Shown in pieces: positions 30,156 through 63,210 of a stretch of 64,000 nt of DNA. This DNA is from Capitulum mitella. Lineage: Eukaryota > Arthropoda > Thecostraca > Pollicipedomorpha > Pollicipedidae. The stretch's first letter is position 1, and every line of letters starts with the position of its first letter. Both the position numbers and the translations under genes were made by a program. The notes below the pieces were generated by a model. That model made no database searches and was not told the DNA's origin. It saw only the letters and a list, made by a program, of their open reading frames with translations. The stretch covers positions 4,464,001 to 4,528,000 of the forward strand of contig CP099840.1 in the NCBI GenBank assembly GCA_030062745.1, in the 5' to 3' direction.

Positions 30156-30205
<50 letters not shown>

Positions 30206-30248
30206 CACTGCGAAACGGATCGTATGCTCAGATTACGATATATATATA

Positions 30249-30290
<42 letters not shown>

Positions 30291-30309
30291 GCCAACGGGG
30301 CACGGGGAA

Positions 30310-30368
<59 letters not shown>

Positions 30369-42300: not shown

Positions 42301-45300
42301 CACGGCAGCTCACGAGCCCACCCGACACGGCGACCGACGTCAGCGCACACTCGCACGACTCGGCACCTCTTAACGACACCAGTTTGTGAAATGTCTAATT
42401 TTCTGAGCAGAACTGAGCTTGAGACTGCTATAAAACATACAACAGAAGTTGGGTTACCTTATCCAGCCGAAGAATGGCGACTCAAATTAAAAAGAGCATA
42501 CAATGCACCTATTTACCTGCTTACTGCCTGCTTAAAAAATCTGCCCATATAAAAACACTGCAAACCAACATCTGCTAAGAATCGCACCCACTAACCACAT
42601 TCAATAAATATTTCACTATTTTTCTGTAAAGTTACACAGACGAAAATCAGACAAAAGAAGCCAACCGACGAATTAAGCCGATGACTTTCGTATTCACCTT
42701 CGCGACACAAAACAGAACCCTAGTCGCCTATTCCGAGGTGCTGTTATTACTGTGACACGAGGCAAAAATAGAACATCGAAGACAATTTAATGGAGCTGTT
42801 CTTCGAAATGCGGCGCCAACCCCGCATCTTCACTGCACACTTATGTCTAAAACTCGGCACTTCTGTGATCCCAAAAGTTGGCGATGTAAAAAACGATATC
42901 CACCTTTTGTTTTAAAGAAATTATACGGATTGTGGAGCTGAATGGGAAATAACATACCGAACAGGAATGGAAGGGCGGGAATGGCAAATAGGGATGTAGA
43001 AGACTGCCATGAAAAGTGGGAAGACAAAGCAAAGAAGACGAGCCGAGACTGGTTTCATTTCGCCAAACTGCGAGCGAATCTATTACAGCTATGGTGCCAA
43101 GATATGAAACTGAGTGACTGCTTAGGTCGTCCTTTTTTGTGCCCGATTACGTAGAGTCCCGGCTAAATTATGGAATGTTTTCAGGCGACAAAGATCCGGC
43201 GGATCAGCAACCGGTGCATGGTGGTGGGCATCGTGGCGCTGTGCATTACCGTCCTGTTCATGCTGACAGTGAACAATATCAAATCGTCACAGCAGAAGCC
43301 GAGTTCAATCGCCGGGTGGCTGCAGGCAGCACGAAAGCATGTTCAAGCGTTCAGCACTGGCCCTAACCGGAAGGGATCCACCGACAGCGCCACGGTGCAT
43401 TTCAGTGAACCGCTGAGGCGGCCAGGAAAAACAGACCAAAATCCAAAAGCCGGCGCTGTACCCCGAAGGCTTCCGGCTTTCCGACCTCGAGAACTTCACC
43501 TTCGTCGTCAACAATGACGTGTGCGGCGACGACGTGGTGGACCTGGTCATGGTGGTCACGTCCGACACGCGCAAGCCGTCCTGGCGTGCTGCCATCCGCT
43601 CGGCGCTTCCACAGAGCACGCTGGACGAACTGCGCATCCGCCGCGTGTTCCTGTTGGCGCAGCTGCCGCCGGCACCGAGGAACGTCTACGACCGTCGGGC
43701 GGCAGCCGTCCAGGCCGAGAATCACGAGCACGGGGACCTGGTGTCGGGCGCCTTCCAGGACGCCTACCGCAACCTCACCTACAAGCACCTGATGGGGCTG
43801 CACTGGGCCACCGCCTACTGCCCGCAGGCGCAGTACATCATCAAGATGGACGACGACATCGTGCTGGACGTGTTCCAGCTCCGCGAGCGGCTGGCGACGG
43901 CGCCCCGCAACCTCACAGCCATCGGCGCCGTCTTCGCCGGCACGGGCCCCATTCGCGACCCCAAGAGCAAGTGGTACGTGACGGAGACGGAGTTCGCGGG
44001 CGACACCTACCCCACCTACTTGTCCGGCTGGATGTACGCCATCACGCCGGACGCGGCCGCCCGGCTGGTGGCCGCCGCCGCCCGGCTGCCGTTCTTCTGG
44101 GTGGACGACGCCTTCGTCACGGGCGTGGTGCGACAGCGGGCGGTGTCGGAGGTCCGACTGCTGGACATGGACCAGCTCTGGGCCACGGCGGACGGCGCGG
44201 GCGCCACCAGCAGGTGAGCCGGCGTCCGGCCGACGCCGTTCCGTTACGCCACTTCGTCGAACTGCACCTCCCCGCCACAGACAGATATCCTCCCGTGGCT
44301 GAGCGCCCCACTAGGGGTTTCAGGGTAGGGCGTGATCAGAAAAAGGAAACTAACTACATGTAGAACAACAGCCTTGTCTAATACTAACCGTGTGCCTTCA
44401 TTTCTCCGCTTGCCTTTGGCACCACGGCCGACCGTCCTTCTAAGCGCATGTCCGTCTCAGGCGTAAACCCGCGCGCGTCCGCTCCGTTTTTCAGTCCGTT
44501 CACCATGGAGGCCGCCTGCGTCTACGAGTGCGCCGCCGAGCCGGAGGCGTCGCGGGGCCGCTGCGACACCCTGGTCGGGCCCACCTGGTCCAACCATCTG
44601 CTGCTGCGGCTCTTCTTCAAGCAGGCCGAATACTGCTACCGGCGCCGGTGCCGGCGGCGGCGCCGCATGCCGGCCATCTGCCACGACGGAGACGCGCCGC
44701 GGCGCGGCGGCATACCGCAGACGATGGCCGAACTGGGCGACGTGGGCCGGTAACGGCGGTACGGCACCAGTCGGGGCGTCCCGGGACAGGCCGAAACGCC
44801 CCGGGGCAAGCCAGGACTTCCCGGAACCGGCCGGGACGTCCCGGGTCAGGCCGGGGTCCCATGACCGGCCGGGGCCCCGGAGCCGGCGACGAGGTCCCAG
44901 GACTGGCTGGGACGTCATGGGACCGGCCGGGACGTCCGAGGACGGACCGGGACGTCACAGGACCGGCCGGGACGTCCCGGGACAGGCCGAGGTCCCATGA
45001 CCGGCGAGGACGTCCCGGGACCGGCCGGGACGTCCCGGGACTGGCCAGGCGCGCGGCGGGAACGGGCCAGCGTGAGCCGGGACCGACGGGCGACGCTGCG
45101 GGTCCACAGCTACCGGTCGCGGTACCAAAGGCACGACCCGGCGCCGCGTGCGCCCGGGAGGCAGGGCATCGGCAGCACTGTGCTGACGGAGAAAACCCTG
45201 CCGTCGACGGAACGCGACCGGGTCCAATGTTCGGTAAAAGGCTGGCCGGCATCCCTCTGGTCGAGTCGCATGGGCCTCGGGCTCGCGGCGTACTGGGACA

Positions 45301-57300: not shown

Positions 57301-59121
57301 GCGTTACTGACGCTCAAGTTCCCCAGATCGGCCACCAGCGCCCATTCGGACTTTGAGTTCTGCGGCACGATGATCACAGGGGCCTGCGGAAGATACAGAG
57401 AATCGATTACGAAGTGGGTCTAAGCGTGAGCTACGACCCAAGGAAGCAAACATCGTAAAATGCAAAAGAATCGTTCGAAACCCCGTCACTACTGCGCGCT
57501 GAAGGCCAATTATGCTACGTCCCGTTCCCGGTTATGCCGAAAATTGCCCTGCGACGTCCAGCGCCCAGCAGCCTTCGCCCCGTCACGGCTTGCCCCATTG
57601 GCGGCCAACAACCGCATATTCGAACCAGCAAGGGATCTCCCTCACACAAACATCTCCTGTTGCCCTGCCTTAGCTCCCAAACCGCGATCCAGAAAGATTT
57701 ACGACATACACCGCTGTACAGCTCTACGTCATGCCCATCTCTCCGGCATCGCCAGCCAGAGTAATGCGGACAACCGTCTGTACTCTTTCTTAAGGCCAGC
57801 AGTGCCAGCAGCAGACACAATGGAACGACGGTCTGCCTTCATATTGATGCTAAGCTTGGCCTTGAACGCCTGCGAGTAGGCGGTCTGCATGGCCTGCTGC
57901 GCCGCCTCTGCCGCCGTCTGCGACGCTTCGGCCAGCGCCGCCTGCGTGGCTGAGAACGGCGTCATGAACGCCTGAAACACATGGATTTGACTCGTCACAG
58001 ACACACGGTGACACAGACACACAGACATACGTGACACCTATCGGCGCCAGCGCATGCCTTATTCTTCTACTGCCAGCCACCTTTGTTAACCGCATTATGC
58101 ACTATTACAAAACCGATGCTGGCAAGAAGCTGAGAACGTTCGGTCCAGATTTTCGCAAAATACGCAACGGATTCCAATTGACGGCACGGGCAACGGCTCC
58201 AGACACCGAACCAACCAGCCCGCACCATTCGGCAGCGCAGCCGACACTCCAGCAGACCGGCGGCGCCGGGCCGACAGCGCTGCCATCTGTCGGTCGGCGC
58301 CGGCACCTCCAACGACGACAGCGCTCACCAGCAGGTCGGTGACGAAGCGGTTGACGAAGAAGAGCTGCGCGCCGCCCAGCTGCGCCGACAGCTCCAGGTC
58401 GATGAAGGCCGGGTCCAGCGGCTCTGGCCGGCTGAAGAGGCTAACCTCGGCGTGGAACACCTCGTCTGAGGTCATGGAGAGGATCTGGCGACACCACGGT
58501 CAGGTCTCATCCGGGGCAGACGGGGAACTCGACTCAAACGAAAGACCAATACAGGGAGATAAATGCCACGGATACGGAGAAGACATCGGCCAAACAATGT
58601 CAAAATTCCGCATTTTCCTCAGTCTCCACATGAGTCTTTTTGTACCAACACCAAAAGTTTTAGGAGACATAGGAAGGCGTTTCATCAGACGACAGGGAGG
58701 GAAACCCCGAAGAAAAAACGCCACACGGCATACATACAGGCAGAAAGAGAAGCATACAAAACGAGGGTGAGTCCAGATAGACCCAATGCCGGTCTGAAAC
58801 ACGGGTACACACGTACCGAGAAAGGCAAACATACACATACGACGCGGACATTGAGACAGAGACAAGAGACGGGAGCCGGCGCTTCGGCGCGCTCACCCGG
58901 TCGTGCTTGATGTCAGGCGTCAGGTCGATGACCGACAGCTGCCTGAGGCTGGCCGTGATCTGCGTGCTGCCGGGACGCAGCTCCACGCCCACGTGCAGGT
59001 TCGCCATGTCCATGTCGGCCAGCCAGACGCGGCTCGACGACAGCTGCACGCGGAAGTCGTTGAAGCAGGCGTCCAGCTTCATGTCGATCTCGGCGCCGCC
59101 GCGGTCGGCGCCGGCCCGGCG
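2342..59121 (-). CDS. Vps13: Vps13 (VPS13A/C-type) bridge-like lipid transfer protein, 43 exons, 5' part outside window
   Basis: VPS13 proteins are long rod-like proteins at membrane contact sites that carry bulk phospholipid through a hydrophobic groove; adaptors dock on the VAB domain and the C-terminal ATG2_C/PH region binds target membranes. I joined 43 minus-strand exons by their homology to VPS13 and by AG/GT borders; every junction keeps frame and the sum is 6,576 nt including the stop (2,191 residues). Diagnostic blocks include GIGLSLVNN (12184–12292), [20 protein letters not shown] (7157–7352), [17 protein letters not shown] (6354–6471) and [19 protein letters not shown] (18561–18764). 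The A/C-type call rests on these; VPS13B and VPS13D differ strongly here. The N-terminal chorein domain and the first third or so of the protein lie to the right of the window. Introns are large and hold two plus-strand genes. Weakest junctions: the first exon's acceptor, the GC donor at 57836, and the donor at 13409. Confidence 0.96.
3870..5117. other. Vps13 intron
   Basis: Begins GC-rich beside the 3869 exon and turns AT-balanced; a short G run lies at 3917–3927. I see no gene or clear repeat. Confidence 0.6.
5118..6471 (-). CDS. Vps13: Vps13 exons 37–39 of window: ATG2_C-like amphipathic helices
   Basis: Exons: 6471–6354, 5810–5689, 5287–5118. They encode [20 protein letters not shown], the Gly/Ala-rich [18 protein letters not shown], then [20 protein letters not shown] and [20 protein letters not shown], and [20 protein letters not shown]. 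These amphipathic helices are shared with ATG2 and associate with membranes or lipid droplets in VPS13A/C. Junction phases are 1 (G|GT), 0 and 2 (CG|G). The 3' splice site of the 6471 exon has a near-copy at 6699, and a 30-bp minisatellite starts 16 bp upstream of the 5810 exon. Confidence 0.96.
5827..5975. repeat. 30-bp minisatellite at a Vps13 3' splice site
   Basis: Units beginning gggtcagc start at 5827, 5858, 5888, 5918 and 5948 (periods 31, 30, 30, 30) with few changes. The array begins 16 bp upstream of the 5810 exon acceptor on the minus strand, so it occupies the pyrimidine-tract side of the intron (C-rich on the minus strand). Confidence 0.9.
6499..6750. repeat. 73-bp tandem duplication plus copy of a Vps13 exon edge
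   Basis: Two near-identical 73-bp units start at 6527 and 6600 (actctcacagccag…), with a partial unit before. Beyond them, 6680–6750 repeats the sequence around the 3' splice site of the 6471 exon, including an AG and the first seven codons (GAIQGPG) at 6699. Confidence 0.8.
7157..10547 (-). CDS. Vps13: Vps13 exons 31–36 of window: last groove repeat
   Basis: Exons: 10547–10385, 10032–9816, 9291–9119, 8639–8520, 7902–7766, 7352–7157. The phase-2 end of 12184 (AG) plus C at 10547 gives S-S-G-V-V-W-E, the VPS13 'ITSSxxxWE' block. Then come [20 protein letters not shown] with [72 protein letters not shown], and [20 protein letters not shown]. All are highly conserved in VPS13 just before the C-terminal helices. 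The exon 7766 contains a short Ser/Ala/Pro insert after SMTGG. Confidence 0.95.
10875..12080. mobile_element. Possible repeat element with diverged terminal inverted repeats
   Basis: The segment 10905–10985 (ggttttaacggcctgaaattaattaaagctggctt) resembles the reverse complement of 11970–12060 (ggttttaaccagctggtctgaattaatctaag). The interior includes a block at 11430–11500 beginning gatggttggttggttattgg that looks like a dispersed repeat. No coding frame. It fills most of the intron 10548–12183. Confidence 0.3.
12184..29013 (-). CDS. Vps13: Vps13 exons 17–30 of window: VAB adaptor-binding domain
   Basis: Exons: 29013–28837, 27963–27829, 27586–27422, 26805–26648, 26099–25982, 25415–25194, 24239–24024, 18764–18561, 17299–17155, 16778–16648, 16331–16180, 13521–13410, 13051–12925, 12292–12184. 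The VAB (formerly SHR-BD) domain has six beta repeats, each with an invariant Asn that binds the PxP-type motif of adaptors or holds the fold. I see six such sites: [59 protein letters not shown] and [14 protein letters not shown]. The domain ends in [17 protein letters not shown] and [20 protein letters not shown], both strong VPS13 signatures. The 28837 exon's donor edge has been copied into a minisatellite; an extra exon may sit between 16180 and 13521. Confidence 0.94.
14053..15198. mobile_element. piggyBac-like non-autonomous DNA transposon (MITE), copy 1
   Basis: An AT-moderate block framed by TTAA on both sides (14049–14052, 15199–15202) and by terminal inverted repeats CCCTATTCCCGG … CCGGGAATAGGG. 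TTAA target duplication with CCC…GGG ends is the hallmark of piggyBac-type elements. The 1,146-bp interior has no transposase frame. Subterminal GC-rich blocks (cggcaggggagcggattcgg near the left, ggacggattcagccccc near the right) are also inverted. Two related copies occur in the window. Confidence 0.75.
15560..15700 (-). CDS. Vps13: Candidate extra (cassette) exon of Vps13 inside VAB
   Basis: A minus-strand block with a good acceptor (tttcctag, exon starts at 15700) and a GTAGAC donor after 15560. It is 141 nt, begins in phase 2 and ends in phase 2, exactly fitting the neighbouring exons 16331–16180 (ends AG) and 13521–13410 (begins C). Included, it would place 47 residues with the Arg/Ser/Glu-rich helical stretch [20 protein letters not shown] between [11 protein letters not shown] and [12 protein letters not shown]. 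Skipped, the two known exons join in frame as A-S-V. If read through its donor it meets a TAG at once (15558–15556), so it could also be an alternative last exon. No such insert is expected from the general VPS13A/C pattern at this point. The splice fit could be chance in a GC-rich region. Confidence 0.4.
21608..21644. repeat. Hairpin with 11-bp arms and nested stem
   Basis: AACCTGACTTT at 21608 is matched by AAAGTCAGGTT ending at 21644; within, GCAC–TTTTT–GTGC forms a second stem. The flanks repeat gcactttttgtg (21580, 21645), so the hairpin sits in a small repeat cluster. Confidence 0.75.
22365..22540. repeat. AT-rich low-complexity tract
   Basis: Dominated by tata, ttata and acaaatttat words with short local palindromes. 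No coding potential. It lies in the large intron 18765–24023. Confidence 0.6.
24270..24535. repeat. Diverged minisatellite, about 24–25 bp unit
   Basis: Repeated gcagccgggacagactggag / tctggtgaagccaggacag modules alternate through the stretch with point changes. It lies in the intron between the 25194 and 24239 exons, close to the acceptor of the latter. Confidence 0.8.
28714..28877. repeat. 41-bp minisatellite built from a Vps13 exon end and its 5' splice site
   Basis: Four units at an exact 41-bp spacing. On the minus strand each unit carries the coding edge (GTGGTCGTCACCAACGGCCA) and a splice-donor position: boundaries at 28837 (gtgagt, used), 28796 (gcgatt), 28755 (gtgagt) and 28714 (gtgagg). 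Confidence 0.9.
29886..33682 (-). CDS. Vps13: Vps13 exons 13–16 of window: groove end before VAB
   Basis: Exons: 33682–33536, 31932–31709, 31180–31043, 30005–29886. They encode [13 protein letters not shown], the aromatic [11 protein letters not shown] ending in phase 1, then [32 protein letters not shown], and [17 protein letters not shown] ... [10 protein letters not shown]. The last motif (W-E-P-[IL]-[VL]-E ... W-x-L) is the well-known VPS13 block just before the VAB domain, also found in human VPS13A/C. The 31709 exon contains an Ala-only-like run (residues about 16–28 of the exon), a GC-rich low-complexity insert. The preceding intron, 33683–42103, is one of the largest. Confidence 0.92.
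30141..30405. repeat. (AT)n microsatellites inside an imperfect inverted repeat
   Basis: Three AT runs (about 30144–30200, 30236–30286, 30312–30366). The unique arms 30203–30246 (…atcgtatgctcagattacg) and 30361–30404 (cgtaatctcagcgtacgatc…) are inverted copies with a few mismatches. Confidence 0.85.
33700..33850. repeat. Two-copy tandem repeat in a Vps13 intron
   Basis: The block ggtcagacgggggtcttacg followed by gtcccggccccggcc and gccacagacagac occurs twice (from about 33709 and 33786), ending in a (CAGA)n run. It starts within 20 bp of the 33682 exon acceptor. Confidence 0.8.
34806..35115. repeat. Diverged 161-bp tandem duplication with an embedded palindrome
   Basis: ggtgctgggctcaca at 34810 recurs at 34971, and the following landmarks (aactttgc, ggtgcatgca, ctgagtacac, ttcaaggg) recur in order. 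The second copy contains a perfect 11-bp inverted repeat with a 3-bp loop at 35024–35048. Confidence 0.8.
37440..37765. repeat. About 91-bp minisatellite, 3–4 copies
   Basis: The module agtctgtccc…agacaaagatacaggtgag…accccggtaagaggacac recurs at 37457, 37548, 37638 and 37730 (periods 90–92). Less ordered relatives of the same module extend back to about 37170. Confidence 0.85.
40741..40899. mobile_element. Truncated copy 2 of the piggyBac-like MITE
   Basis: The sequence from 40741 (ggtcatagctccgtga…) matches 14756–14860 of copy 1, then jumps to the right end, CTGCCGGGAATAGGGTT. The subterminal block here forms a perfect 13-bp inverted repeat with a 7-bp loop (40858–40890). The left part of the element is missing; the flanking TTAA reads TTGA. 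Confidence 0.65.
41734..41806 (+). repeat. tRNA-like sequence, probably head of a tRNA-derived SINE
   Basis: TAGCTCAATAGAC at 41741 resembles the pol III A box and GGTTCAAATCG at 41793 the B box, at tRNA spacing (about 52 bp). An anticodon-arm-like pairing AGCGT/ATGCT lies between, but the loop is short and the acceptor stem is poor, so a working tRNA is unlikely. Confidence 0.4.
42104..50269 (-). CDS. Vps13: Vps13 exons 9–12 of window: lipid-groove segment
   Basis: Exons: 50269–50143, 47556–47397, 46337–46215, 42206–42104. Phases: the 55001 exon ends in phase 1 and is completed by TG at 50269 (Leu); 50143 ends in phase 2 and is completed at 47556 (Pro); the next two junctions are phase 0; 42104 ends in phase 1. 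Peptides include [32 protein letters not shown] and [17 protein letters not shown], which match the repeat pattern 'P-I/V-F-V/L-x-D-L' seen before the middle of VPS13 proteins. A Pro/Lys-rich linker ([19 protein letters not shown]) straddles the 50143/47556 junction. The intron 42207–46214 holds the nested GT31 gene on the other strand. Confidence 0.9.
43170..44753 (+). CDS. GT31 beta-1,3-galactosyl/N-acetylglucosaminyltransferase, nested in Vps13 intron
   Basis: Type II Golgi enzyme that adds beta-1,3-linked Gal or GlcNAc to glycans. The start at 43170 gives a short basic tail (KIRRISNR) and one membrane segment ([15 protein letters not shown]). The catalytic part runs from [17 protein letters not shown], with [12 protein letters not shown] (R..AIR motif), [20 protein letters not shown], the metal-binding [27 protein letters not shown] and [11 protein letters not shown] (the ED/DD acid block). 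The last intron is clear: donor after 44213, acceptor before 44495, phase 2, stop TAA at 44751–44753. The first intron is inferred because the membrane segment and the catalytic part are in different frames; 43269–43425 (gtgaac…ccag, 157 bp) restores frame and gives about 381 residues, normal for the family. The gene lies antisense in the 42207–46214 intron of Vps13. Acceptor specificity cannot be read from sequence; the C-terminal exon is Arg/Cys-rich and less conserved. Confidence 0.85.
44754..46214. other. Vps13 intron left of the 46337 exon
   Basis: The first 300 bp are the GC-rich minisatellite; the rest is AT-balanced and shows nothing recognisable. Confidence 0.5.
44790..45065. repeat. 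GC-rich 20-bp-class minisatellite after the GT31 gene
   Basis: Runs of ggccgggacgtcccgggac-type units follow the GT31 stop codon. The unit contains its own inverse (gacgtc, cccggg), so the array is palindromic and likely to fold. It may lie in the gene's 3' UTR. Confidence 0.8.
47683..47962. repeat. (TCTGG)n microsatellite interrupted by a hairpin element
   Basis: tctggtctggtccgg-type repeats occupy 47683–47706 and resume at about 47857–47962. The sequence between is unrelated and includes the inverted repeat at 47707–47811. Confidence 0.85.
47707..47811. repeat. Hairpin element (inverted repeat, about 42-bp arms)
   Basis: Left arm GATTATGAAAATATACAACT… and the reverse complement of the right arm GATTATAAAAATATACATCC… match along about 42 bp, with the shared core TTCTTTA-ACCGGGA. 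The loop is about 20 bp. Confidence 0.8.
47963..50142. other. Vps13 intron between the 50143 and 47556 exons
   Basis: Mostly unique AT-balanced sequence. Short relatives of dispersed repeats may lie at 49280–49520 and 49915–49965 (gcccaaaacaacattgggtg twice, diverged). No gene seen. Confidence 0.5.
50270..55000. other. Vps13 intron with MITE copy 3
   Basis: Apart from the element at 51474–52704 no gene or clear repeat was found; open frames here are short and show no domain. Confidence 0.5.
51474..52704. mobile_element. Diverged full-length copy 3 of the MITE family
   Basis: Shares with copy 1 the left block gagatctcgagaa…ccgatttcatcgcaacaaa, the middle blocks (ttcatag/gcgttc, ggcgg/ggtgcc), the block ggtcacagttccgcgatccg and the right block ccaagtttcgtgacgc…gcgagcaaaaaac. 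The order and spacing are the same. The ends differ: TGTCCCTTAAAGG at the left and its inverse near 52690, so this is an older or sister subfamily. Confidence 0.6.
55001..59121 (-). CDS. Vps13: Vps13 exons 1–8 of window: lipid-groove (RBG) segment
   Basis: Exons (minus strand, start to end): 59121–58897, 58484–58329, 57971–57837, 57383–57211, 56824–56674, 56343–56053, 55585–55441, 55111–55001. They encode beta-strand-rich groove repeats. Recognisable VPS13 stretches are SVIDLTPD (58897 exon), [11 protein letters not shown] (58329), [10 protein letters not shown] (57211), [18 protein letters not shown] (56674) and [11 protein letters not shown] (55001). The 56053 exon carries an Ala/Pro/Glu-rich insert of about 50 residues between its conserved ends, an expected loop outside the groove. 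The first exon's acceptor could be the cag ending at 59122 (phase 0, used here) or one ending at 59127. The third exon appears to end with a GC donor (AAG then gcagac), because the conserved K–A junction falls exactly there and no GT is near. Confidence 0.9.
58597..58766 (+). pseudogene. Second copy of the lectin gene's leader region, with a splice donor
   Basis: The 140 or so bases from the ATG at 58597 match the start of the lectin gene at 59985. The leader [17 protein letters not shown] is 17/23 identical over the signal peptide to MAKFCIFLILHVSIFVI, and the next stretch (tcatcagacgac and gaagaaaa blocks) also matches but with small length changes, so the frame after residue 23 differs. 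The match stops near 58740. A strong donor (GTGAGT at 58767) follows in the open frame, so this may be either a relic of a partial duplication or a real alternative first exon supplying a signal peptide. It lies in the Vps13 intron 58485–58896, separated from the lectin gene by a Vps13 exon on the other strand. Confidence 0.6.
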
Positions 59122-59984
59122 CTGAACTGGAACCGGGGGCAGGCGGCGGCGCGTCAGGCCACGCCGCCATCGGGTCGGGACACAGCGCCGAACACGAGCC
59201 CGCGCTCCGCGTGTTCCGGACGCCGTGCACTGCGGGCGAGCGGTGGACTGACCCTCGGACTGCGTGGTCGCCCCAGATCCTTATTCTGACAAACAAGGGC
59301 ACAGTGGAAGATGATCCCCGGAGGGGGTTAGTGGACGTTGCTGGACTTGCAGTGCACTTCACTTAGATACAAGTTTGTTTGCTTTTGTCGCGAGTCCTTG
59401 GGTAATCATGATACTGAATCCCGTCACTAAACTCAAGTTTCTGTTCCGTAGTGCGTTTTCTTCGCTGAAGACGGTGCATTTTGTACCCCAAGTATTGGTT
59501 TGCATTATCTTAAAGTAGGGCTTCATATAACTAAAAATATGCCAATTTGATGTTAAATCGTGGCAGTTAAGGCCAACACTCTGACAGCACAGTTTCGGTG
59601 GTAAGGTTTCGACATCAACCACTTTCGTGGAATACACGCCTAAGACGGCCCGTTCCAGCGTCGCCAGTCCCGTGCCGGAATTCAAGGAATAACACCTGTC
59701 ACCCGACCAAAAGCCACAGCAGCACGGCCAGCAGAAGACGGTGACAGATCCTTCATAGCCGTGATATTACCAGGGAATCAGTTAAAACGAACCATGCCTT
59801 CGAAGGAGAGCCATACAAAAGAATGCAAATGCTTTACCACGCGCTGCAAGAAACTCGACAAAGATAAACAAAAGCAAACGATCAAAAAGCCTGCAAATCC
59901 TAGCCAGCTAGCTACTTACTGAAAATTACAGAGTATGATTATGCATTGTAGTAATTAATTTGAGTCCAAATAAGAATTTTAGCG

Positions 59985-62900
59985 ATGGCAAAATTCTGCA
60001 TCTTTCTCATCCTTCACGTAAGTATTTTTGTAATAACACCAAAAGTTTTAGGAGGGACATACCACGGCGTTTCATCAGACGACGGGAAAGGAAAAACCGA
60101 AGAAAAGAATGTCACAGGGCATACTCTTGTTTTAAAATACGGTCATTCTTTAAAAGATCTGGCAGAAAAGTGCCGCCTCAAAAAAAATCTCACAGATTAC
60201 GAGAAGAGGTGTTGTCGGACAATGGAATCGAATGGAGTTCCAGGACCCGGTGGATTTTCAATAATCAGACAAGAAACCCAGGTAATGCAGTTCGGAAAAA
60301 ACATATCCCAAGCTCTTTTAACACTGCTGAGAAGGCTGAACGGCAGCCCCAATGAAAAAGAGAATGCACCAAATTCCTGCAGTGACGAAAAACAAAAAAT
60401 TATGTCTGACCTTCAACAATGCTCCAAGAAAAGAACTGAATGTTCTAATGAACTGATCAAGGTTCAAGTTAATATTCAAACTTTAAACACACAATATAAA
60501 GCGCAAAACAAAGAAACAGAATCACTCAAAGAAGACCACGAACATATCACCGCGGAGTGCAAAAAACTAAAAAAACAGCTTGAAAACATCGAAGATGACC
60601 GAGACGAAAATAGTAAGAAAATCGACCAGTTAATCCTGGACATAAAAACCACTGAGACAATGCGCGTCAAAGATCGTGAGAATACATTCAAAATATCTAA
60701 TAAACTTATAGCGTGCGAAGTTAAACAAGAATATACTCAAAAACGTTTGGAAGAAATCGAAAAAGAAAATTCCGACCTCGACAAGGACCTAGATCACGAA
60801 AAAGACCAACTGGAAGCGTGCAGACATGATAAATCTCGTCAACACGCAGCGTTAGAAAAGCTGGGACCTATGAAAGGAAAACTAGAAGCTATTCAAGAAA
60901 CAGTCGACAGATTACATGGAACGTTGAATACTTGCCAAAGAAAAGAGCAAAAAAGTGAAGAAGAATTAAAACAATGTGCCGAAAAGGCCCAAAAGTTACA
61001 ACGCTGCGAATCGGAGAATGAACAATGCAGGAGGAACCATCTCGATGGGCCACAGCAGTGGCGTGACAAATACCACAACTGTTCAAATCACATCATGAGA
61101 ACCGCGTTAGACCTAGCAAACGCTAAACATTCGCTGGGAGACGTGAAAAGGCGCGCGCAACACCTTGAAAAACAACTGGAGCAGTGTAAAGACGAATCCC
61201 GAATGCTGAAGAGCAGCAATCAGGACTTACAGCAGAAAAACGACGATTTTTACAAACGTTTAAGAGATCTGGAGGCACAAAATAACGCTCTGAAGCAACA
61301 AATAAAAACAGCACAAGAGAACCACGAAACCTGTGAAAGAAAAAAACAAAGCTTTGTTAAAATGTTAGATGAAAGGAACGCTGGACTTATCAAGGTATCA
61401 GAAAATAATAAACACCTTAAAGAAAAACTTACACAACAAGAAAGAAAAGTCACGTCGGAAAAAGAACGCAGAATCGAATGTGAAGGAACTTTCAAAACAC
61501 TGCAAAGAACACAAAGTGAATGCTTACAGCTTAGAAAAGAGGATAAAATACAACGTTCACGAAACATCGAAGAACTGCAAGAATGTAAAAGCAGCCTTAG
61601 CGAATGCAGCACACAGTTAAGCATGCTAAAAAACAGCACAAAAGAATGTGACAAGGAAGACAACAAACTGCAGTCTCTGTATGAGAAATGCCTATATCAA
61701 AAGAAGCGCATAGAAAAAGGGTTGGCAAAGTCTTCTGATAAAATAAAGGATGAACAGCAGGAACATTCCCAATGCCAGGAAAGACTTTCCTCGGTACAAA
61801 TTGAGCTAAAACAGTGCCGAGACCAGAGCCAGGACTCTGTGGATAGGTTGAAAAAACTTTCTGAGTCCCATGCTGATTTAGCAAATCAAGCACTGCATCT
61901 AAGTGAGGACCACAGCGTCTGCACCAGCAAACTGGACAAAGCACTAACGGCTCTGGATCGATGCAACACATCACTTGAAGTGGCAAATGGCGCCAAGGAA
62001 ACATGCGTGGAGCAGAAGACATTATTAAACACAAAACTGCGTGATTTAGCATCGTTCAAGAACGATGCACTACCGCAGATGGAAAAGGAAAGGGTGAGGC
62101 TTGAGTCGTGCCTGAGCACATTAAAAACTGCACGAAATTCGGATGCCGCGACAAAAGAAGAGTTCAAAAAGTGCGAAAACAAACTGAGTGGCGCCATGTC
62201 AACAAATAAGATGCTTCACATTGAGCTGGAACAGTGCAGAAAGCATGACAATATGACAACAAGCCACATCGACCAGTGGGAACAACGTCACACCCGTTGT
62301 GTTAAGAGCAAGGAGCAGCTGGAAGAAAGACTGAGCCATTTTAAACGGGAATGCGAAAACCACAAAGAACATCATGAGAAATGCCAAAAAGCATTGGACG
62401 AATGTCAAAAGGGAGCTAGTAACATGAAACAGATGGCTGAAAAATGCAACTTCCAGCTCGACGAAGTCAAAGAAGACCTGGAGCAAGAGAAGATGGCCAA
62501 AAGGCAATGCGACACAAAGTTCCTCACTTCCTCGGCATCACTGCGCAAAGCAAGAGAGCAGGCAGAAACTAGTGGCAAACTGCTCAGCTCCTGCACCAAA
62601 AAACTTACATCATGCACCAACGAAAACGTACCATCTAATGCATCCTCCCATACAACCTGCCCCAAAGGCTACACTGCTGTCGGCACTCATGGGGAAAAAC
62701 AATGTATGCTACTCTCTAACATTAGGTCGAATGGTTTTGCCATGCATGAGTTCTGCGGGAAACATGGCGGACAACTGCTGCACGTTTCCAGCTTCGACGA
62801 CCTGCAATTTGCGAGCGATTTGATTGCAAAGCGAGGGCTGTCGGGAAAGTTTTTGGTCGACCCCAGCCGCTATATGGTGCAGAAACTGGGAGTAATTGCG

Positions 62901-63065
62901 GGCAATATTCGTCCACAAGACACGTGCTACTTCGTCGACAGCCGACACCACCAAAAACCACTGACGAGCCAATTAGCCTACGACAAATGCACCGGGGAAA
63001 CGTTCGGTGCCTTATGCTGGACACAATCCACCAGCCTGAATTCTGAAGACTTTCTCTTCAAGTGA
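59985..63065 (+). CDS. Secreted giant Cys-studded coiled-coil protein with C-terminal C-type-lectin-like domain
   Basis: One open frame of 1,026 codons without introns. Residues 1–23 form a signal peptide (KFCIFLILHVSIFVITP core, cleavage near VLGG). Residues about 50–880 are a Lys/Glu/Gln-rich heptad coiled coil carrying some 40 Cys, roughly one per 20 residues, usually in an acidic/polar context such as ELQECKSSLSEC or KCQKALDECQ. No membrane segment follows the leader. The end (about 890–1026) is a C-type-lectin-like domain: CPKGYTAVG, QCMLL, HEFCGKHGGQLLHVSSFDDL, CYFVD, KCTGETFGALCW, giving the six Cys of the long form. The EPN/QPD and WND calcium–sugar motifs are missing, so sugar binding is doubtful. 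The codons are A-rich, unlike the GC-rich Vps13 exons. The gene sits antisense, apparently within an upstream Vps13 intron. A stalked oligomeric lectin or matrix protein is the likely role; no family match by name is offered. Confidence 0.85.
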   Translation: MAKFCIFLILHVSIFVITPKVLGGTYHGVSSDDGKGKTEEKNVTGHTLVLKYGHSLKDLAEKCRLKKNLTDYEKRCCRTMESNGVPGPGGFSIIRQETQVMQFGKNISQALLTLLRRLNGSPNEKENAPNSCSDEKQKIMSDLQQCSKKRTECSNELIKVQVNIQTLNTQYKAQNKETESLKEDHEHITAECKKLKKQLENIEDDRDENSKKIDQLILDIKTTETMRVKDRENTFKISNKLIACEVKQEYTQKRLEEIEKENSDLDKDLDHEKDQLEACRHDKSRQHAALEKLGPMKGKLEAIQETVDRLHGTLNTCQRKEQKSEEELKQCAEKAQKLQRCESENEQCRRNHLDGPQQWRDKYHNCSNHIMRTALDLANAKHSLGDVKRRAQHLEKQLEQCKDESRMLKSSNQDLQQKNDDFYKRLRDLEAQNNALKQQIKTAQENHETCERKKQSFVKMLDERNAGLIKVSENNKHLKEKLTQQERKVTSEKERRIECEGTFKTLQRTQSECLQLRKEDKIQRSRNIEELQECKSSLSECSTQLSMLKNSTKECDKEDNKLQSLYEKCLYQKKRIEKGLAKSSDKIKDEQQEHSQCQERLSSVQIELKQCRDQSQDSVDRLKKLSESHADLANQALHLSEDHSVCTSKLDKALTALDRCNTSLEVANGAKETCVEQKTLLNTKLRDLASFKNDALPQMEKERVRLESCLSTLKTARNSDAATKEEFKKCENKLSGAMSTNKMLHIELEQCRKHDNMTTSHIDQWEQRHTRCVKSKEQLEERLSHFKRECENHKEHHEKCQKALDECQKGASNMKQMAEKCNFQLDEVKEDLEQEKMAKRQCDTKFLTSSASLRKAREQAETSGKLLSSCTKKLTSCTNENVPSNASSHTTCPKGYTAVGTHGEKQCMLLSNIRSNGFAMHEFCGKHGGQLLHVSSFDDLQFASDLIAKRGLSGKFLVDPSRYMVQKLGVIAGNIRPQDTCYFVDSRHHQKPLTSQLAYDKCTGETFGALCWTQSTSLNSEDFLFK

Positions 63066-63204: not shown

Positions 63205-63210
63205 AATAAA
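63205..63210 (+). terminator. Polyadenylation signal of the coiled-coil lectin gene
   Basis: AATAAA occurs 140 bp after the stop codon at 63063–63065, in a suitably A/T-rich stretch, giving a short normal 3' UTR. Confidence 0.6.

Follow-up and report, generated by a model that had tools for sequence, protein, structure and literature searches.

The question raised by this locus is what a single uninterrupted reading frame of 1026 codons, rich in regularly spaced cysteines, encodes and how it came to lie where it does. In this work we analysed a stretch of 64,000 nucleotides from the barnacle Capitulum mitella (contig CP099840.1, positions 4,464,001 to 4,528,000 of the forward strand; hereafter the window), near the end of which lies the gene called here gene A, and compared gene A with two relatives, genes B and C, found elsewhere in the same genome. 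The answer which we favour with fair confidence is a secreted, parallel, disulfide-zipped rod, most likely an extracellular structural or adhesive one. The parts of gene A are as follows (window positions).

59985–63065, plus strand: gene A (product P0001), one open frame of 1026 amino acids followed by TGA, no introns
59985–60056, plus strand: predicted signal peptide, residues about 1–24, from hydropathy, cleavage site placed by eye
60057–60374, plus strand: N-terminal Cys-bearing region, residues 25–130, with Cys 63, 76 and 77 and four N-glycosylation sequons
60375–62639, plus strand: Cys-ladder coiled-coil stalk, residues 131–885, with 35 Cys, mostly at heptad position d
62658–63023, plus strand: putative divergent long-form C-type-lectin-like domain, residues 892–1013, with six Cys
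63205–63210, plus strand: poly-A signal AATAAA

A long open frame for a predicted secreted protein

An in-frame stop codon at 59961 stands directly upstream of gene A. In 300 order-1 resamples of the gene A stretch, read in three frames, the longest stop-free run was 245 codons, so a frame of 1026 codons is not a matter of chance. A preliminary description of this DNA had placed an intronless gene at 59985–63065 and a signal peptide at the start of its product, and both are borne out. The gene is a single open frame, the highest 19-residue hydropathy of the protein begins at residue 4, and the hydropathy scan finds no transmembrane-like stretch past residue 40; on its secretion signal the protein is predicted to be secreted. 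The product has a predicted mass of about 118 kDa and an isoelectric point of 8.5, and contains 45 Cys and nine N-glycosylation sequons in all. Its N-terminal region matches no Pfam family.

Cysteines in the core of the coiled coil

The stalk is composed of 13% K, 12% E, 10% L, 9% Q and 4.6% C, and its cysteines keep step with the heptad. Twenty-seven of the 34 Cys-to-Cys gaps in gene A are exact multiples of seven, where random placements gave a mean of 4.2 and a maximum of 14, none of 20,000 reaching 27. The strongest period of Cys along this stalk is 3.5 residues, with 7.0 residues second. Over residues 355–780 one heptad column contains 22 Leu among its 61 residues and no Cys, the column three residues after it contains 18 Cys and 16 Leu (again of 61), and the remaining columns contain no Cys at all. 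The Cys column is assigned to position d because the Leu-rich, Cys-free column stands three residues before it. When the register was set in pieces by hand, 33 of the 35 stalk Cys of gene A fell at d and two at a.

This assignment is tempered by two points: the piecewise register of gene A was the analyst's own choice, and a vote of neighbouring residues, taken without a set register, places 24 of the 35 Cys at d and 4 at a and leaves 7 undecided. The same vote gave 19 d, 3 a and 8 undecided for the 30 stalk Cys of gene B, and 18 d, 1 a and 6 undecided for the 25 of gene C. Around the 90 stalk Cys pooled from the three proteins, one of the residues L, I, V, M or F is found in 53% of cases at −3, 39% at +4, 49% at −7 and 47% at +7, and in only 13% at −4 and 7% at +3. 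The stalk Cys lie at core positions of the heptad, as expected of a disulfide-linked coiled-coil dimer.

The coiled coil and the regularity of its Cys had been described correctly from the start, and only the size needs revision, from about 830 residues with some 40 Cys to about 755 residues with 35. NCBIfam models gave matches to the coiled coils of SMC and Rad50, far under their cut-offs, a result that indicates a coiled coil and no more.

A gene family in which the ladder appears to outlast the sequence

Two further frames share the plan of gene A.

C2:4533315–4536629, plus strand: gene B, 1105 amino acids, intronless, about 6.2 kb downstream of gene A and outside the window
C3:18187251–18190577, minus strand: gene C, 1109 amino acids, a single open frame on another chromosome

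Gene B came to light when open frames were read in the 10 kb that follow on the chromosome, and a genome search with B gave a match to C at E 8e-102. Multiples of seven make up 27 of the 32 Cys gaps in B, which has the same plan as A, and 20 of the 28 in C; in neither case did any of 20,000 random placements reach that number. Identity among the three proteins is 16–24%. One-to-one BLASTP of B against C aligned about 1,030 residues at 24% (E 5e-105), the best-kept part being the N-terminal region (46%, E 4e-15), while the end domain, at 32–33%, is modestly above the stalk. Gene A is tied to C by the end domain (one-to-one comparison, E 1.4e-4), and its kinship with B is drawn from their neighbourhood, the shared plan and this A–C link. 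The preliminary description dealt with gene A alone; it turns out to belong to a family of at least three members in this genome, with A and B as same-strand neighbours and C elsewhere.

What has been kept in this family was examined on the stalks of B and C in a Cys-blind alignment, that is, one giving Cys no bonus, as an ordinary alignment rewards Cys. There, 150 of 777 non-Cys residues are shared (19%) and 18 of 29 Cys are kept. Random choice among the 147 d-like positions keeps 4.5 Cys on average, and none of 20,000 trials reached 18. Retention of Cys so far above random d-like choice, unlike that of the other residues, argues for selection on the ladder. The ordinary alignment of B and C keeps 30 of C's 38 Cys. 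The architecture is kept across A, B and C while most of the sequence drifts.

The position of gene A in this picture is less secure, and several results count against it. Direct BLASTP of A against B is weak (best E 0.008); a genome search with the end of C recovers B at E 5e-16 and does not find A up to E 10; and in the Cys-blind alignment few stalk Cys positions of A are shared, 3 of 30 in the comparison with B and 2 of 33 in that with C. The ordinary alignment pairs 23 of 41 Cys between A and B and 19 of 41 between A and C. Either the ladder of A is arranged differently, or the alignment of A is unreliable at such distance.

The genome search with P0001 returned gene A only, and neither B nor C was found with gene A or its ends; ordinary similarity searches can therefore be expected to miss members of such a family, in which similarity falls to about 20% while the architectural pattern persists. 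No fourth member appeared at a significant E value in genome searches with C, the N-terminal region of B or the end of C, searches which score the best candidates only and from which remoter members may escape. Prokaryote and virus collections contained no relative of the gene A protein, and whole P0001 had no match among PDB sequences at E 0.001.

Some candidates were dropped. As relatives of the end domain of A, loci L003, L004 and L005 gave E values of 0.13, 0.42 and 7.3, not significant, and the matches of L030, L031, L048 and L049 were not significant either. Locus L040, weakly similar to the end of gene C (E 0.13 and 0.8), may be a distant relative, although we do not claim it as one. 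Its single 464-codon frame (L040:928–2319, on C3, minus strand) begins like a signal peptide and has one Lectin_C match below threshold (E 0.002); inspection by eye suggests another lectin-like part and a helical stretch.

The probable C-terminal lectin-like domain

The six Cys of the end domain of A are spaced 15, 17, 57, 21 and 9 residues apart, which is a spacing of long-form C-type-lectin-like domains. In B the series is 15, 17, 47, 23, 8 and in C 16, 17, 47, 23, 8, and two lectin domains of the same genome taken for comparison read 13, 17, 69, 19, 8 (L010) and 11, 17, 74, 15, 8 (L011). A wide long-form spacing pattern, set after the domain had been seen, fits 25 of 100,000 shuffles. Aligned with hhalign against ten lectin domains of the genome, a profile of the A, B and C ends scored 28.6 over 105 columns, where the best of 200 column shuffles reached 18.1.

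EPN or QPD and WND are the triplets of calcium-dependent sugar-binding lectins. The C-terminal 175 residues of A, B and C contain no triplet of these types. Though Pfam misses it, the profile comparison and the Cys spacing support a lectin-like end, and a very divergent long-form C-type-lectin-like domain, lacking the sugar-site triplets, is the well-supported prediction for it. On both the type of end domain and the missing triplets we agree with the preliminary description.

Several results speak against it. The Pfam model Lectin_C (PF00059) matches neither the end domains nor the whole proteins of A, B and C, and none of the 134 Lectin_C matches listed for the genome (150 scored of 208 candidates) falls at these genes. 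The probability that hhalign itself gives to the profile match is 41%, with the fourth Cys unaligned, and a sequence-only test of the A end against a hidden Markov model of the ten domains was not significant, 1 of 2,000 shuffles scoring higher. Structure prediction, the check proposed for this domain in the preliminary description, gave a divided result. AlphaFold2 failed on the sequence alone (mean predicted local distance difference test, pLDDT, 37) and reached pLDDT 64 with an alignment that included nine lectin domains of the genome and is hence biased towards that fold. When the latter, lectin-biased model was compared with the PDB, the best 50 of 565 matches were all C-type-lectin-like by title, with a best E of 4e-4, template modelling (TM) scores of 0.45–0.61 to the query and root-mean-square deviations of 3.9–10. 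The only PDB sequence matches of the end domain, to RecA chains, came from a short chance stretch and were discarded.

The proposed rod and its use

How could such a chain be built into an extracellular material? Two chains would form a parallel coiled coil some 755 residues in length, which at the coiled-coil rise of 0.15 nm per residue corresponds to a rod about 110 nm long. In a two-stranded parallel coil a Cys at d faces its twin on the partner chain, and in the oxidising secretory pathway these facing Cys would bond between both chains in a zip-like manner, at intervals of about one to seven heptads. The bonding would be like that of the solved dimer of PLVAP, a vertebrate protein considered below, with many more bonds. 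A pair of lectin-like heads with no recognisable calcium or sugar site would sit at the C-terminal end and would probably bind a protein or a surface, and the small Cys-bearing N-terminal region may join rods end to end. We infer the parallel dimer, its disulfides and the rod form from sequence, and the structural or adhesive use is our guess. A rod cross-linked along its length, as the preliminary description had suggested, is also what Cys at d and like ladders in B and C point to.

More tentatively, and as a possibility on which we would not yet rely, these proteins may represent a kind of extracellular fibre not described before in animals. Such rods, about 110 nm long, would be closed by dozens of d-position disulfides and made by a fast-evolving barnacle family in which selection keeps the ladder more than the sequence; they would be mechanically stiff, switchable by reduction and would bear a lectin-like head. 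If the bonds form as predicted, few natural coiled coils would be stapled so densely, and the clear pattern of Cys at d with Leu at a could serve protein designers who want rods that are stiff or respond to redox state. In addition, the family provides candidate components of the extracellular or adhesive matrix, which may be present without a name in lists of proteomes.

For adhesive use, barnacle cement is the nearest reference. According to the available part of one cement study, cement proteins are secreted, some being cysteine-rich and some having a C-type-lectin domain, and the cysteine-rich group was seen in the acorn barnacle A. amphitrite and not in the stalked P. pollicipes (PMC8371367). 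That distribution weighs against an adhesive role here. The main text of the same paper has no word beginning with "coil" (PMC8371367).

The main rival to structural use is an immune one, in which the rod would serve pattern recognition or opsonisation, somewhat in the way of LRIM1/APL1C, with the lectin-like head as the recognising part. Secretion, the head itself and the fast divergence of A, B and C (16–24% identity) would all suit such a function, as would the richness of this genome in lectin domains (of 208 candidates 150 were scored, and 134 of these matched at E ≤0.001). Against it, the last 175 residues of all three proteins are free of EPN/QPD/WND-type triplets, and the head is kept only modestly better than the stalk (32–33% between B and C). 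We consider the immune reading unlikely, though it deserves to be kept in mind.

A second rival concerns the Cys rather than the function. Those at d might be partly free, as latent thiols which on curing link neighbouring rods or other partners, giving a network and not single stapled rods. The ladder does seem far denser than one dimer requires. By heptad geometry, however, the core position d faces the partner helix and not the solvent, therefore bonding within the dimer is favoured, and the Cys stay in the core in all three proteins. Oxidative crosslinking of barnacle cyprid cement proteins has been tested and would lend the network some plausibility, but the route tested there was lysyl oxidase, not thiols (PMC8639568). 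A thiol-cured network is quite unlikely in our judgement, and single rods stapled within the dimer are preferred.

Genomic setting and origin

Two further features of the window lie just upstream of gene A.

58597–58733, plus strand: broken partial copy (81% identity) of the first 140 bases of gene A, starting at the ATG itself
58897–59126, minus strand: exon of a VPS13-like gene, assignment and borders by eye, itself without a Pfam match

The minus strand has matches to VPS13_N at C2:4557143, 4556834, 4556521 and 4548361. Taken together with two pieces in locus L022, their positions in the model rise as the coordinate falls from C2:4557143 to about 4542.8 kb, and this puts the 5' exons of the VPS13-like gene about 16–30 kb beyond gene A. 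Because of these matches beyond the two genes and of the exon seen by eye at 58897–59126, it is probable that an intron of this opposite-strand gene contains both A and B.

The absence of introns had been taken in the preliminary description as a sign of retroposition, a claim that the present results do not support. A copy of a spliced parent, inserted into the VPS13-like intron, would account for an intronless gene A and for its probable, partly by-eye, nesting in an opposite-strand intron. Protein searches of the genome, however, found no intron-bearing parent (a distant one could be missed, as B and C were with A), the relatives B and C are intronless too, and at least three other, unrelated lectin-domain genes (L012, L015 and L017) are also single open frames. 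A retrogene is therefore very unlikely. The least credible alternative is that gene A is decayed or silent and intact in looks only: the broken 5' copy 1.4 kb upstream, found by a genome search with the N-terminal part of gene A and carrying length changes that shift its frame, would fit a decaying locus, yet the 1026 open codons, the poly-A signal that follows them, and the recurrence of both ladder and domain plan in two further intact frames make this most improbable.

The three single-frame lectin genes have about 400 codons each from Met and a signal-like start, and in L012 two Lectin_C stretches were confirmed by Pfam. Many other lectin-domain matches in the genome fall in short frames, because of which spliced lectin-domain genes probably exist as well. 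The genome also gave chitin_bind_4 matches for all 150 that were scored of 627 candidates, as befits an arthropod. Judged by eye, L012, L015, L016 and L017 (C16, about 11.06–11.10 and 11.83 Mb) are very similar and carry two or more lectin-like domains per frame, the open frame of L016 being shorter than the others (341 codons). Another arrangement was observed at L041 (C2:11055501–11060500) and L042 (C16:4133501–4138500), where long frames contain many near-alike, Cys-rich repeats of 66 residues followed by a lectin domain, an alternative way to join a lectin head to a stalk rich in disulfides. L041 has Pfam matches to Lectin_C and Dickkopf_N, and its repeat can also be read upstream in another frame, indicating a frame change inside the array.

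Elsewhere in the window, an open frame at 43519–44217 matches Pfam Galactosyl_T (E 2.4e-38) and is a piece of an ordinary glycosyltransferase gene, and three runs of AT dinucleotide repeats lie close together at 30160–30366.

Comparison with known systems

Tetranectin, CLEC4F, langerin and secreted lectins of insects likewise combine a coiled-coil stalk with a single C-type-lectin domain at the C-terminus. Their stalks are shorter, often trimeric and not known to be Cys-laddered, and unlike in these lectins the end domain of gene A is missed by Pfam.

For the stalk itself a close parallel is PLVAP of vertebrate endothelial diaphragms, whose ectodomain, according to the part of the study available, forms a parallel coiled-coil dimer, is linked between its chains by several symmetric Cys bonds and carries N-glycosylation sites (PMC10083539). 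The likeness consists in a long extracellular coiled coil with Cys and N-glycosylation sites, the bonds here being predicted from sequence. The differences are that PLVAP, by the same partial source, is membrane-anchored and has nine ectodomain Cys, as against 35 in the stalk of gene A (PMC10083539). The PDB sequence search with P0001 at E 0.001 showed no sequence relation between the two. We know of no lectin-like head in PLVAP.

Olfactomedin-1 (PMC4463452) and the mosquito LRIM1/APL1C (PMC6592522) share with the present proteins secretion, a coiled coil and disulfide linkage. They bear other head domains, and the available parts of the two papers contain no mention of an equally dense ladder. 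In the open-licence literature searched, there was no account of this architecture among the matches listed. The disulfide-linked coiled coil and the lectin-like head are known as kinds, while what appears to be new in the barnacle family is the density and strictness of the ladder, and its persistence among sequences that have become nearly unrecognisable to one another.

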